Assembly: GCA_017935785.1 (NCBI GenBank) | Contig: JAGBGU010000003.1 | Span: forward strand, 1-64,000 | DNA from: Bacteroidaceae bacterium | Lineage (GTDB): Bacteria; Bacteroidota; Bacteroidia; Bacteroidales; Bacteroidaceae | Direction: 5' to 3' | Length of the DNA: 64,000 nt | Shown here: positions 51,777 to 59,788 of the stretch, one piece after another | Layout: every line of letters begins with the position of its first letter | Numbering within the stretch: the first letter of the stretch is position 1 | The notes under the pieces: model-generated | Told to the model about the DNA's origin: nothing | Databases searched by the model: none | Seen by the model: the letters and a program-made list of their open reading frames with translations, nothing else | Translations under genes and position numbers: made by a program

Positions 51777-51980
51777 ATGGACAAAAATATTTTACAAGCG
51801 GGAATAGACGCAATTACACAAGCTATTTCAGAGAACCCCACTGCTATTTTATATAAGGAGCGCGGAAGACTGCGCATGCTTTCCGGTGACAGCGAAGGTG
51901 CAATGGAGGATATTCAAAAAGCAGCCGAATTGGATTCGAGTTTCCTTGAAGAACTCAACGGCAGATTCGACATAAAGTAA
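51777..51980 (+). CDS. small TPR-like protein
   Basis: 67 residues starting at MDKNILQAG. One TPR-like helix pair is visible: AITQAISENPTAILYKERGR, then LSGDSEGAMEDIQKAAELDSS. It lacks a signal peptide and enzymatic motifs. It lies 26 nt after the permease stop on the same strand and probably shares its message. A partner-binding role is plausible but untested. Confidence 0.65.
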   Translation: MDKNILQAGIDAITQAISENPTAILYKERGRLRMLSGDSEGAMEDIQKAAELDSSFLEELNGRFDIK

Positions 51981-52017: not shown

Positions 52018-52049
52018 CTTGCACATTTTACAAAAAGCACATAATTTTG
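52018..52049 (+). promoter_or_regulatory. promoter of the phe/tyr attenuator and operon
   Basis: CTTG (TTG at 52019-52021), 20-nt spacer, TAATTTTG (52042-52049). Transcription should begin near 52056, leaving about 20 nt before the leader ATG. Confidence 0.8.
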
Positions 52050-52077
52050 CGCTGATTTAAAACAAAAAGACAAAAAA

Positions 52078-52143
52078 ATGTACTTAGGAAATTCTTTCTT
52101 TTACGGCTTTTATTTTTACTTTTACTTTAGCAAACTGAAGTGA
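52078..52143 (+). CDS. Phe/Tyr-rich leader peptide of the attenuator
   Basis: A 21-codon open frame, too short for usual gene calling: ATG TAC TTA GGA AAT ... TGA. It encodes six Phe and five Tyr, 11 of 21 residues, mostly in an alternating block (FFYGFYFYFYF) just before a short SKLK end. Such codon clustering is the hallmark of leader peptides that sense charged tRNA-Phe and tRNA-Tyr. Its stop TGA (52141-52143) overlaps the first bases of GAAGCGGG (52142-52149), which matches an arm of the downstream terminator. It is followed by pheA, exactly the pathway predicted from the codons. Confidence 0.85.
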   Translation: MYLGNSFFYGFYFYFYFSKLK

Positions 52144-52239
52144 AGCGGGTCGTTACGTACATAAATCAAGATAGAATAAAAAACAGAATCACAAACAATA
52201 GAAAATGTCCCGCTTCCGCAAGAAGCGGGATTTTTTTTT
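52142..52239 (+). promoter_or_regulatory. transcription attenuator of the phe/tyr operon (antiterminator and terminator)
   Basis: Terminator: stem TCCCGCTTC (52208-52216)/GAAGCGGGA (52222-52230), 5-nt loop, nine or more T (52231-52240). Antiterminator: GAAGCGGG at 52142-52149, adjoining the leader stop, is identical to the 3' arm and can instead pair with CCCGCTTC (52209-52216). A ribosome stalled on the Phe/Tyr codons (last at 52126-52128) leaves 52142-52149 free; one reaching the stop covers it and lets the terminator form. Confidence 0.85.
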
Positions 52240-52266: not shown

Positions 52267-53109
52267 ATGATTAACGTAGCCATTCAAGGATTCAAGGGAA
52301 GTTTCCACGACATTGCCGCCCATCATTATTTCGAGAATGAAGAGGTTGAACTTTCGTGCTACAGCACATTCGAACAGGTCTTCAATCATGTAAATGAAAA
52401 TCCCGACTCTGTGGCCATGGTTGCCATAGAAAACACCATAGCCGGCAGCCTGCTGCATAATTACGAGTTATTACGCGACAGCGGACTGACTATTGTCGGC
52501 GAACACAAACTGCGCATCAGCCACAGTATCATGTGTCTGACAGAAGATAATTGGGACGACATTAAGGAAGTGAATTCGCATCCTGTCGCACTGATGCAAT
52601 GCCGCGAATTTCTGGAAAAGCACGGTTCTTACAAGGTTGTGGAAGTGGCGGATACAGCCGGAGCCGCACAGGAAATCAGCAACAAAAATCTTCGCGGCCA
52701 TGCCGCCATCTGCCACCATGACGTAGCCTCCATCTACGGAATGAAGATTCTGCAGGATGGTATTGAGACCAACAAACACAATTTCACGCGTTTTCTGGTT
52801 CTTGCCAACAAGGAAAAGGCCGTAGAATTGCGCAATCTGGACAAAACTAACAAGGCCAGTCTGGAGTTTACCCTTCCGCACGAAGAGGGAAGCCTCAGCG
52901 CCATATTGAGCATATTGTCCTTCTACAAACTCAATCTTACGAAAATCCAGTCGCTTCCCATCATCGGAAAGGAATGGCAGTATATGTTCTATATCGACCT
53001 CAGTTACAACAGCCTCACCAATTACAGACAGGCTATCAATGCCATCTCACCGCTTACACAAGAACTCAACATGTTAGGAGAATACATCAATGGAAGACAA
53101 AGCATTTAA
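52267..53109 (+). CDS. pheA: prephenate dehydratase
   Basis: 280 residues: dehydratase domain (about 1-185; QGFKGSFHDIAAHHYF, AIENTIAGSLLHNYELL, NFTRFLVL) and ACT regulatory domain (about 195-275; LPHEEGSLSAILSILSFYKL, then NLTKIQSLP). Converts prephenate to phenylpyruvate, with probable Phe feedback inhibition through ACT. No chorismate mutase domain is fused to it; that activity is carried by the DAHP synthase gene two positions downstream. First gene after the attenuator; the 3' end overlaps the aminotransferase by 20 nt. Confidence 0.95.
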   Translation: MINVAIQGFKGSFHDIAAHHYFENEEVELSCYSTFEQVFNHVNENPDSVAMVAIENTIAGSLLHNYELLRDSGLTIVGEHKLRISHSIMCLTEDNWDDIKEVNSHPVALMQCREFLEKHGSYKVVEVADTAGAAQEISNKNLRGHAAICHHDVASIYGMKILQDGIETNKHNFTRFLVLANKEKAVELRNLDKTNKASLEFTLPHEEGSLSAILSILSFYKLNLTKIQSLPIIGKEWQYMFYIDLSYNSLTNYRQAINAISPLTQELNMLGEYINGRQSI

Positions 53110-54277
53110 CATACAGCCGGCCGAACGCCTCGGTTCTGTAAAGGAATACTATTTCAGCAGAAAGCTAAAGGAAGTGGCGCAAATGAATGCACAGGGAAAA
53201 GACATCATCAGCCTTGCCATCGGAAGTCCAGACCTTCCGCCCAGTGCCCCCACCATCGAAACCCTTTGCCGTGAAGCCGCCAAACCCAATGCGCACGGCT
53301 ACCAGCCCACAGCCGGAACACCCGAATTGCGGACAGCCATGGCCAGGTTCTACAAACGCTGGTATGGAGTGGACCTGGATGCAGCCGGGGAAGTGTTGCC
53401 ACTCATCGGTTCAAAGGAAGGCATACTCCACGTCACACTGGCTTTTGTGAATCCCGGCGATAGCGTGCTTGTCCCTAATCCCGGATACCCCACCTACACG
53501 AGCCTCAGCAAACTGCTCGGTGCAGAGGTTGTACCCTATGACCTGCATCAGGAGAACGGCTGGCAGCCAAACTTCGAAGCATTGGAGCAAATGGACCTGA
53601 GCCGTGTAAAAATAATGTGGACCAACTATCCGCATATGCCAACCGGCGCCAAGGCCATGCGCCAGACCTACGAACGCCTGGTCGATTTTGCCCGCCGCCA
53701 CAACATCATCATCGTCAATGACAATCCCTACAGCTTTATCCTGAACAAGGATGAAAAGCTGAGCATTCTGCAAGTGCCCGGTGCCAAGGACTGCTGTATA
53801 GAATTCAACTCCATGTCCAAGAGCCACAATATGCCGGGATGGCGTGTGGGAATGCTTTCCACCAACGCACAGTTTATCCAATGGATCATGAAGGTGAAGA
53901 GCAACATAGACAGCGGAACCTTCCGCGCCATACAGCTTGCAGCCGCCCAGGCGTTTGACAACGAAGACGAATGGCATATTCGGGCCAATGTGGAAGTGTA
54001 CGCCGCACGCCGGGCACGTGCCGAAGAAATCATGCGTGTTCTGGGCTGCACATTCGACACCAGCCAGGTAGGCATGTTCCTGTGGGGGCGTATCCCCGAC
54101 AGTTATGCCGAGGCGGAACAGCTCACGGAGAAAGTCCTTCACGAGGCACGCGTATTCATCACACCGGGATTTATCTTCGGAAGCGCCGGAAAACGCTATG
54201 TCCGCATAAGCCTTTGCGCAGGAACAGACAAGCTGGACGAAGCGCTGGACAGAATCAAAGCCATGCAAACCGCATAA
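53090..54277 (+). CDS. class I/II PLP-dependent aminotransferase
   Basis: 395 residues. PLP-Lys in EFNSMSKSHNMPGWRVGM (about residue 245), the fold-type I NPGYPTY and NYPHMPTGA (usual NPTG replaced by MPTG) and the Arg of the C-terminal RISLCAG block. In this operon it probably transaminates phenylpyruvate and 4-hydroxyphenylpyruvate, or prephenate, to aromatic amino acids. Paralogues with LL-diaminopimelate or aspartate specificity look similar. Overlap with pheA by 20 nt indicates coupling. Confidence 0.9.
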   Translation: MEDKAFNIQPAERLGSVKEYYFSRKLKEVAQMNAQGKDIISLAIGSPDLPPSAPTIETLCREAAKPNAHGYQPTAGTPELRTAMARFYKRWYGVDLDAAGEVLPLIGSKEGILHVTLAFVNPGDSVLVPNPGYPTYTSLSKLLGAEVVPYDLHQENGWQPNFEALEQMDLSRVKIMWTNYPHMPTGAKAMRQTYERLVDFARRHNIIIVNDNPYSFILNKDEKLSILQVPGAKDCCIEFNSMSKSHNMPGWRVGMLSTNAQFIQWIMKVKSNIDSGTFRAIQLAAAQAFDNEDEWHIRANVEVYAARRARAEEIMRVLGCTFDTSQVGMFLWGRIPDSYAEAEQLTEKVLHEARVFITPGFIFGSAGKRYVRISLCAGTDKLDEALDRIKAMQTA

Positions 54278-54333: not shown

Positions 54334-55401
54334 ATGGAACTGAATATAGAAAAACTGGGACTTAACGGACTGGACGAAGTTCGCCCCATCGTCATCTCCG
54401 GACCTTGCAGTGCCGAGAGTGAAGAACAAGTAATGAACACAGCCAGACAGCTTGCCAAGAAAGGCGTCAAGATTTTCCGGGCCGGTGTGTGGAAACCCCG
54501 TACCAAACCCGGCGGTTTCGAGGGACATGGCGAGCCGGCACTGCCCTGGATGAAGCGCGTGAAGGAAGAAACCGGCATGCTCATCACTACAGAAGTAGCC
54601 ACGCCCAAACATGTGGAAGCCGCATTGGAAGCCGGCATGGACATGCTGTGGATTGGCGCACGCACAACGGCAAACCCCTTTGCCATACAGGAGCTTGCAG
54701 ACAGTCTGCGCGGAGTGGACATCCCCGTGCTTGTGAAAAACCCCGTCAATCCGGACATTGAGCTGTGGATTGGCGCCCTGCTGCGCATAAACGGAGCGGG
54801 AATCAAGCGGTTGGGAGCCATCCACCGCGGATTCAGCAGTATAGACCAGAAGATCTACCGCAACACTCCTCTCTGGCATATTCCCATAGAGCTTCACCGC
54901 CGTTACCCCACCCTGCCCATCATTTGCGACCCCAGCCACATTGGCGGACGCAGAGAGCTGGTGGCATCCCTTTGCCAGCAAGCCATGGACATGGGCTTTG
55001 AGGGTCTCATTGTGGAGAGCCACTGCTGCCCTGACAGCGCCTGGAGCGATGCCAAGCAACAGATTACGCCAGACGTGCTCGATTTCATTCTCGACCGCCT
55101 TGTCGTGCGTAACAACCAGGAATTTACAGAGTCGCTGGGAGGCCTGCGCAAACAGATTGACGAAATGGACGACCAGCTGCTCAACCTCCTCACCAAGCGA
55201 ATGCGCGTAAGCCGCGAGATTGCCCTTTACAAGAAAGACCACAACATGGGCGTGGTGCAGACCGCCCGTTACAACGAGATTCTGGACAAGCGCTGTGCAC
55301 AGGGAAGCCTTTGCGGAATGAGTCCCGAATTCGTGCGCCGCATCTACGAGTCAATCCACGAAGAGAGTGTCCGTCAGCAGATGGAAATTATCAACAAGTA
55401 A
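54334..55401 (+). CDS. aroF: bifunctional DAHP synthase/chorismate mutase
   Basis: 355 residues. N-terminal type I beta-like DAHP synthase (about 1-260): VISGPCSAESEEQV, FRAGVWKPRTKPGGF, CDPSHIGGRRELV with Cys and metal residues. C-terminal AroQ-type chorismate mutase (about 268-350): RKQIDEMDDQLLNLLTKRMR, then VSREIALYKKDHNM. It makes the first intermediate of the shikimate pathway and prephenate from chorismate; fusion suggests allosteric control by prephenate/Phe/Tyr. It is the third gene of the operon, 56 nt after the aminotransferase. Confidence 0.94.
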   Translation: MELNIEKLGLNGLDEVRPIVISGPCSAESEEQVMNTARQLAKKGVKIFRAGVWKPRTKPGGFEGHGEPALPWMKRVKEETGMLITTEVATPKHVEAALEAGMDMLWIGARTTANPFAIQELADSLRGVDIPVLVKNPVNPDIELWIGALLRINGAGIKRLGAIHRGFSSIDQKIYRNTPLWHIPIELHRRYPTLPIICDPSHIGGRRELVASLCQQAMDMGFEGLIVESHCCPDSAWSDAKQQITPDVLDFILDRLVVRNNQEFTESLGGLRKQIDEMDDQLLNLLTKRMRVSREIALYKKDHNMGVVQTARYNEILDKRCAQGSLCGMSPEFVRRIYESIHEESVRQQMEIINK

Positions 55402-55422: not shown

Positions 55423-56196
55423 ATGCGAATACTCATTCTTGGCGCAGGAAAGATGGGCAGTTTCTTCACAGACCTGCTGTCCTTCAAGCACGAATGCGCG
55501 GTCTACGAGATAGACCCCAAGCGGATGCGCTTTCTATACAACACACAACGGTTCACCACGCTCGAGGAAGTGTCCGCCTTCCGTCCCGAGCTGGTCATCA
55601 ATGCCGTAACGCTGAAATACACCCTTTCCGTGTTCGAGGAAATCATCCCCCACCTGCCGTCGGACTGTATCATCAGCGACATCAGTTCCGTAAAGACAGG
55701 CTTTCTGGATTTCTATGAGAAGACAGGCATGCGCTACGTGAGCACACACCCCATGTTCGGCCCCACATTTGCCAATCTGGGGGCGCTCAGCTCCGAGAAC
55801 GCCATTGTCATTACCGAGGGCGACTACATGGGACGGCTCTTTTTCCTCGACCTCTACAACCACCTCGGACTGCACGTTCACGAATACTCCTTCAGCGAGC
55901 ACGACGAGGCCATGGCCTACTCGCTCTCCGTTCCTTTTGTAAGCACGTTTGTATTCAGCGCCGTTATGAAGAAACAGGATGCGCCCGGAACCACCTTCAA
56001 GCGCCATCTGAACATAGCCAAAGGCGTACTCTCCGAGGACGACACCCTGCTGCGCGAAATATTGTTCAATCCCCGCACAAAATCGCACGTAGAAGGCATC
56101 CGCGCCGAACTGAAAGAACTGATAGAAATCATTGACCGCCACGACGAGGAAGCCCTGAACAGCTATCTGAAGAAGATAAGGAAGAATATTTCTTAG
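55423..56196 (+). CDS. tyrA: prephenate dehydrogenase
   Basis: 257 residues, a short TyrA. Rossmann domain with ILGAGKMGSFFTDLL at the N-terminus and the acidic residue after strand 2 in YEIDPKRM (NAD preference). The STHPMFGPTFANL segment is the substrate region (HPMFGP). Oxidative decarboxylation of prephenate to hydroxyphenylpyruvate. No ACT domain or chorismate mutase. A 9-nt CTAG-containing repeat follows its stop codon directly and the operon terminator follows that. Confidence 0.93.
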   Translation: MRILILGAGKMGSFFTDLLSFKHECAVYEIDPKRMRFLYNTQRFTTLEEVSAFRPELVINAVTLKYTLSVFEEIIPHLPSDCIISDISSVKTGFLDFYEKTGMRYVSTHPMFGPTFANLGALSSENAIVITEGDYMGRLFFLDLYNHLGLHVHEYSFSEHDEAMAYSLSVPFVSTFVFSAVMKKQDAPGTTFKRHLNIAKGVLSEDDTLLREILFNPRTKSHVEGIRAELKELIEIIDRHDEEALNSYLKKIRKNIS

Positions 56197-56264: not shown

Positions 56265-56316
56265 AAAAACTGTAAAAGAATCATACACCCGCTGTATGAT
56301 TCTTTTACAGTTTTTT
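56264..56316. terminator. long perfect bidirectional hairpin after tyrA
   Basis: A 24-bp perfect stem (AAAAAACTGTAAAAGAATCA and so on, with its complement at 56293-56316) and a 5-nt CCCGC loop. The U-run comes from the stem on both strands, so it can terminate both ways. Confidence 0.85.
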
Positions 56317-59006: not shown

Positions 59007-59032
59007 CGACGATTCCCCCGCTCGCATACCTG

Positions 59033-59543
59033 TCCGCGAGGGGTCGCGGAGCATTCCAACGCTGAAAAAATGGTCCGCGAGGGGTCGCGGAGCATTCCAA
59101 CGCTGAAAAAATGGTCCGCGAGGGGTCGCGAAGCATTTCCACGCCGAAAAAATGGTCCGCGAGGGGTCGCGGAGCATTCCAACGCCGAAAAAACGGTCCG
59201 CGAGGGGTCGCGGAGCATTTCCACGCTGAAAAAATGGTCCGCGAGGGGTCGCGGAGCATTTCCACGCTGAAAAAATGGTTCGCGAGGGGTCGCGGAGCAT
59301 TCCAACGCTGAAAAAACGGCCGGCGAGGGGTCGCCGAGCATTCCAACGCTGAAAAAACGGCCGGCGAGGGGTCGCCGAGCATTTCCACGCTGAAAAAATG
59401 GCCGGCGAGGGGTCGCCGAGCATTCCAACGCTGAAAAAACGGCCGGCGAGGGGTCGCCGAGCATTCCAACGCTGAAAAAATGGCCGGCGAGGGGTCGCCG
59501 AGCATTTCCACGCTGAAAAAATGGCCGGCGAGGGGTCGCCGAG
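59033..59543. repeat. tandem array of 12.5 exactly 41-nt units with conserved hairpin
   Basis: Twelve complete units and a partial, beginning at 59033. Units 1-7 carry TCCGCGA-GGGG-TCGCGGA (unit 7 TTCGCGA); units 8-13 carry CGGCGA-GGGG-TCGCCG, a paired C-G to G-C exchange that keeps the stem. Between hairpins: GCATTCCAACGC or GCATTTCCACGC, then (T/C)GAAAAAA(T/C)GG. Read on the minus strand each unit is hairpin, CCA/CCG, T6, tail ending AATGC. All three minus frames stay open through it, producing a repetitive but meaningless reading. Confidence 0.95.
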
Positions 59544-59564
59544 GGTTTAGAAACACAACCTAGC

Positions 59565-59748
59565 GTCATCCTGAACTTGTTTCAGGATCTCACAGCGAGC
59601 CTTTGGAAACCCCTCACCGCGGACAGATGCTGAACTAAATTCAGCATGACAATACACCAAACGTCATCCTGAACTTGTTTCAGGATCTCAACGCGAGCCT
59701 TTGCCACCCCCTCACCGCGGACAGATGCTGAAACAAGTTCAGCATGAC
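59565..59748. repeat. two inverted pairs of REP-like palindromes
   Basis: Elements at 59565-59590 and 59663-59688 read GTC-ATCCTGAA-loop-TTCAGGAT-CT; elements at 59625-59650 and 59723-59748 are in the reverse orientation, with arms ATGCTGAA/TTCAGCAT. Starts are 60 nt apart within each pair, with a CCGCGGAC-type spacer. They precede the permease gene; 59749-59788 contains only AT-rich sequence with no promoter found. Confidence 0.85.
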
Positions 59749-59788
59749 AATACAAAAAGTATAACAACAAAATAAAACAAAAAACAAA

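Follow-up and report, generated by a model that had tools for sequence, protein, structure and literature searches.

The operon that begins with pheA in a Bacteroidaceae bacterium is preceded by a short reading frame rich in Phe and Tyr codons and by an intrinsic terminator, which raises the question of whether translation of a leader peptide controls transcription of the operon and, if so, which amino acids the leader senses. The window analyzed is the whole stretch of 64,000 nucleotides at positions 1 to 64,000 of contig JAGBGU010000003.1 (assembly GCA_017935785.1), and the features of the leader and operon described below lie on its forward strand. The anatomy of an attenuator, its conservation and covariation, and a codon content matching the regulated genes were observed in this analysis, and the locus is very probably a classical ribosome-mediated transcription attenuator that senses both Phe and Tyr.

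The trinucleotide TTG at 52019 to 52021, which we take to be the -33 element of the Bacteroidota promoter consensus, is followed after a 20-nucleotide spacer by the -7 element TAATTTTG (52042 to 52049), and a base-by-base check showed a Bacteroidota-type fit. The -7 element has the form TAnnTTTG, named as the consensus in PMC9723704. It is conserved in relatives, with a TAnnTTTG box no more than 90 nucleotides upstream of the leader start in 86 of 89, compared with 3 expected. The leader peptide reading frame MYLGNSFFYGFYFYFYFSKLK (52078 to 52143) runs from the ATG at 52078 to 52080 to the TGA at 52141 to 52143. Six Phe and five Tyr codons make up 11 of its 21 codons; the class of the aromatic codons is conserved, and translation of the leader is predicted. 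The fold of the leader RNA has a z score of -3.15. Directly upstream of the leader is the gene of a small TPR-like protein (51778 to 51980); a similar reading frame was seen upstream of pheA in three relatives without a leader (L056, L057, and L062).

Downstream of the promoter, four regions can pair in alternative ways. Region 1 (52120 to 52130) comprises the leader codons Phe15-Tyr16-Phe17-Ser18. Region 2 contains the antiterminator arm GAAGCGGG (52142 to 52149), which overlaps the leader stop codon and is separated by 13 nucleotides from the last Phe codon, ending at 52128. Regions 3 and 4, the terminator arms TCCCGCTTC (52208 to 52216) and GAAGCGGGA (52222 to 52230), were recovered by a terminator scan and by folding. 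Together they form the terminator 52208 to 52230, TCCCGCTTC-CGCAA-GAAGCGGGA, with 9 bp, or 10 bp when a G-T pair is counted, followed by a T9 tract (52231 to 52239); the complete intrinsic terminator (52208 to 52239) thus sits between the leader and pheA. The antiterminator arm is complementary over 8 bp to 52209 to 52216, so that region 3 has region 2 as its alternative partner. Compared with shuffled sequences, the antiterminator hairpin had a z score of -4.5 and the terminator -6.0. The original prediction had given the promoter, the leader, the 9-bp terminator, and the T9 tract correctly to the base; the second copy of the terminator 3' arm that it placed at the leader stop was present, and its 13-nucleotide spacing was confirmed.

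A further hairpin, absent from that prediction, was found in the minimum free energy (MFE) fold, in which region 1 pairs with the 5' part of region 2 (52135 to 52145). In the folding model, this 1:2 hairpin completes the 1:2, 2:3, and 3:4 layout of trp-type attenuators, and 92.8% of its cells are paired in relatives. It coexists with most of the 2:3 pairing in folds of the nascent RNA, indicating that exclusivity is partial, and the 2:3 pairing still forms in constrained folds of nascent RNA without any ribosome. The constrained folds did not uphold the view that this hairpin serves strictly as an anti-antiterminator.

The genes downstream were assigned by Pfam. Prephenate dehydratase (pheA; 52267 to 53109; PF00800, E value of 2.5e-54) is followed by a class I/II aminotransferase (53090 to 54277; PF00155, E value of 2.7e-62), an aroF-like fused DAHP synthase/chorismate mutase (54334 to 55401; PF00793 and PF01817), and a tyrA-like prephenate dehydrogenase (55423 to 56196; PF02153, E value of 5.5e-10), in agreement with the full pheA-aroF-tyrA operon predicted earlier. 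The terminator scan also detected a 20-bp inverted repeat flanked on each side by a T tract (56267 to 56313), which is probably a strong operon-end terminator acting in both directions. Farther downstream, the window contains an array in which a 41-bp unit with a GC-rich hairpin is repeated 12.5 times (59032 to 59543; 93% matches), adjoined by a 98-bp repeat at 59564 to 59754.

From the sequence and its predicted folds, we infer stalling, termination, and read-through at the leader as follows. RNA polymerase would start near 52055, and a ribosome would translate the 21-codon leader. With Phe-tRNA and Tyr-tRNA plentiful, the ribosome would reach the stop at 52141 and cover GAAGCGGG; the terminator at 52208 to 52230 with its T9 tract would then form, and transcription would end before pheA. 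A shortage of charged Phe-tRNA or Tyr-tRNA would stall the ribosome in the FYFYFYF tract; GAAGCGGG, left free, would pair with 52209 to 52216 ahead of synthesis of the terminator 3' arm, and the four-gene operon would be transcribed. The 1:2 hairpin, in which the arm pairs with the last aromatic codons, probably favors termination when the leader is untranslated.

Folding constrained by a ribosome mask gave results in line with the stalled-ribosome switch of the original prediction. With the mask on the Phe/Tyr codons, the probability of the antiterminator in the nascent RNA was at least 0.95; with the mask at the leader stop, it was 0.00 and the terminator formed. In thermodynamic folds of the full-length RNA the terminator always won, indicating that the switch, like known attenuators, would need kinetic coupling. 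The leader continues through the antiterminator arm in 35 of 89 relatives, with its stop 7 to 43 nucleotides past the start of the arm, and masking must therefore proceed somewhat differently in these. In the 35 loci (L043, L061, L070, L073, and L094 among them), the arm encodes VKRE or VERE in frame with the leader. Judged from the sequences, leaders that run through the arm represent another architecture for this switch, in which the 1:2 hairpin behind the ribosome may be needed.

The family set comprised 99 related pheA loci, from 80 named contigs and others, and for the leader counts the terminator criterion was relaxed to admit stems with large loops. An aromatic leader that ends in FYF-type codons, with an arm after them able to pair with the terminator, was present in 89 of these Bacteroidaceae-type loci and missing from 10 (among them L037, L039, L040, L055, L056, L057, L062, L066, and L103). 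Several of the leaderless relatives have a promoter box directly in front of the pheA start codon or have pheA close behind another gene, which indicates that the attenuator can be lost.

The codons of the leader showed two patterns of conservation. Counting back from the conserved Phe-Tyr-Phe, Phe and Tyr were exchanged freely at codons -4 to -2, and the third bases were T or C. Nearly all of the 89 loci have TAC TTT TAC TTT as their last four aromatic codons, and the Tyr codon directly before these, where present, is TAT. These near-invariant codons, together with the 1:2 pairing, point to selection on the RNA itself besides the peptide.

In an alignment of 54 diverse members (A1), both alternative helices covaried. 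The 3:4 helix had 92.9% of cells paired, with 49 double-change cells compared with 10.8 in shuffles, and the 2:3 helix had 88.5% of cells paired, with 19 double-change cells compared with 6.8. At columns 42:122, the change from GC to AU affects regions 2 and 3 jointly, and in most cases region 4 is altered to match. All three arms are altered in L007 and L021 (GAAACGGG/CCCGTTTC/GAGACGGG) and in L077 (GAGCGAG/CTCGCTC/GAGCGGG). The expectations that related pheA upstream regions would keep the codon class over varying DNA and would show compensatory arm changes were thus both borne out.

Whether Tyr is sensed along with Phe was addressed by comparing the leader codons with the genes under control. 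The attenuator could answer to Phe alone or to the general speed of translation, with the Tyr codons serving as passive spacers; the known enterobacterial pheA leaders are Phe-only, and sequence does not tell single codons apart. In the leaders compared here, however, Tyr followed the regulated genes. Where pheA shares the operon with the other genes, Tyr made up a fraction of 0.45 of the aromatic control codons and was present in 48 of 48 leaders. The leaders of aminotransferase-aroF-tyrA operons without pheA were Tyr-rich (0.54), whereas the fraction was 0.00 in all three stand-alone pheA leaders, which come from two lineages, one with G228 and G435 and the other with G238.

The operon is split in the genus g58. 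Two of its genomes, G228 (L215/L279) and G435 (L216/L276), have a lone pheA with the leader control region FRFFFFFAFFF, and the leader of their aminotransferase-aroF-tyrA operon keeps FAYFYYYFYF. In G238 (L280/L332), from an unrelated family, pheA stands before ilvD with the leader NNSFFFFFF, and tyrA is located elsewhere with YYAWSFFFFYF. The probability of two independent all-Phe tracts at the general Phe/Tyr frequency is near 2e-4, for a comparison that comprises two lineages and hence a small number of independent events. In five further g58 genomes, pheA has no leader. This match of codons to genes is a natural experiment and, as a comparison of sequences, the strongest evidence for codon sensing. 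Since lone pheA leaders are Phe-only and operons with shared or tyrosine genes have both codons, the comparison supports the view that the leader in the window reads both Phe and Tyr, as originally predicted, and a response to Phe alone or to translation speed is unlikely.

It is considerably less likely that another sensor, such as a riboswitch, a T-box, or an RNA-binding protein, drives the same terminator and that the peptide is secondary. Such systems likewise switch between a terminator and an antiterminator, and a contribution of a protein is possible. However, no Rfam covariance model, including T-box and riboswitch models, reached its gathering threshold at the locus or in the element at 13 related loci. 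In addition, the approximately 57 nucleotides from the arm to the terminator show poor conservation of both sequence and length, and a conserved aptamer would have little space there. The best subthreshold Rfam match at the locus was Thr_leader (RF00506), at 33.8 bits, and Phe_leader (RF01859) reached 19.5 bits; the gathering score is 55 for both models.

These scores are those of attenuators which a leader peptide sensing both Phe and Tyr resembles in layout. Enterobacterial pheL (RF01859) likewise has a leader rich in the end product, the 1:2, 2:3, and 3:4 pairings, and an intrinsic terminator upstream of pheA. Unlike pheL, the Bacteroidaceae leader would sense Phe and Tyr and precedes one operon with pheA, an aminotransferase, DAHP synthase/chorismate mutase, and tyrA. 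In thrABC (Thr/Ile; RF00506) and ilvGMEDA of Proteobacteria, one leader likewise senses several amino acids for an operon with several end products, but the amino acids and genes are different, and the RF00506 score reflects likeness of layout and not membership.

The distribution of the element was determined with a covariance model, which matched 88 of 295 Bacteroidales genomes and a single place in the window's own genome. Among the best 30 matches, all those with readable downstream genes were located before pheA or, in three cases, before aminotransferase-aroF genes. Weak matches of the R1 model at L218, L222, and L224 were attributed to chance or to unrelated terminators. In Bacteroidia outside Bacteroidales, an aromatic leader and terminator were present in 20 of 24 loci; in the four leaderless loci, pheA is directly downstream of another reading frame. 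The arm sequences outside Bacteroidales are unrelated (for example, AGGATTGT/ACAATCCT and GAGGCTTTGTA/TATAAAGCCTC), and most of these loci have an arm complementary to the terminator approximately 4 to 14 nucleotides past the control codons. In other classes of the phylum, a leader-like reading frame was found in 2 of 46 pheA loci (L202 and L204), with weak arms, and the claim of a phylum-wide attenuator was dropped.

In approximately 17 of the 88 Bacteroidales genomes matched by the model, pheA or the aminotransferase is preceded by two successive aromatic leaders. Most of the leaders at the serial loci (L334 to L340, L217, L223, L284, L298, L309, L312, L316, L318, L328, and L139) have their own arm and terminator. 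In ten tandem loci that were checked, the arm was better than in shuffles (P up to 0.05) in 16 of 20 attenuators, and at least one of the four failing attenuators had a mis-chosen terminator. The second copy often has AAGGTGGGA/TCCCACCTT, and the first copy has ACGGGA/TCCCGT.

Ile/Leu-rich leaders with a GAAGTGA-type arm and a terminator were observed upstream of a leuA-like gene in G403 (L220; MRNTINNIINISIIILLWERDRK) and upstream of an ilvD-like gene in G238 (L230; MRHMLTSIIFIILTCHGKK). By their sequences, these two are likely attenuators for branched-chain amino acids built on the same plan. No His or branched-chain leader was found at hisG, the two leuA-type genes, or ilvD of the window's own genome.

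An AT-rich region easily yields TTT and TAT/TAC codons, but the idea that the short reading frame arose by accident in a T-rich, A-rich region before an ordinary terminator has a negligible probability and is already refuted by the comparative sequences, unless unrelated RNA explained all of the conservation: a chance origin is implausible because the leader recurs at 89 of 99 loci and across Bacteroidia, Phe and Tyr codons are swapped within their class while the DNA varies, the arms covary, and a strict scan for an aromatic leader plus terminator, over both strands of 1.35 Mb of related loci, gave 43 of 43 matches upstream of pheA and none away from it. Overall, it is probable, though with less confidence than for the locus itself, that the Phe/Tyr attenuator is ancestral and class-wide in Bacteroidia, with codons retuned to the genes (Phe-only for lone pheA and Phe plus Tyr for shared or tyrosine genes), was serially duplicated in many Bacteroidales, and has its design also on leuA/ilvD operons in some.

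Attenuation by leader peptides is a textbook mechanism that has been described mainly in Proteobacteria and Actinobacteria. A comparative study of attenuation by Vitreschak et al. in 2004 is said to include some cases from Bacteroidetes/Chlorobi. Among the papers covered by the literature search, none dealt with Phe/Tyr leader codons. The original statement that leader peptides of amino acid operons have little documentation in Bacteroidetes is reasonable but does not hold without exception. PMC9723704 (2021) describes strong clues for leader-peptide attenuation before amino acid biosynthesis operons in Flavobacteriaceae, and one of the conserved 5' elements that it lists as matching no Rfam family lies upstream of pheA in Flavobacterium psychrophilum and other Flavobacteriaceae. 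That pheA element concerns the same gene and phylum as the leader described here but was reported for Flavobacteriaceae only. Long 5' untranslated regions with small open reading frames reminiscent of attenuation leader peptides were reported for Bacteroides thetaiotaomicron (PMC7366714, 2020), with pheA unmentioned in the main text.

The mechanism is classical; of interest to the specialist are its range across the class, the retuning of its codon content, and its tandem copies. The short terminated transcripts of the attenuator could be mistaken for small RNAs, with no Rfam model matching at threshold. The split-operon cases make codon specificity testable by comparison inside one genome. 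As a conserved and easily recognized element in the dominant gut and rumen phylum, the attenuator would provide a ready native amino acid sensor for tractable hosts such as Bacteroides.
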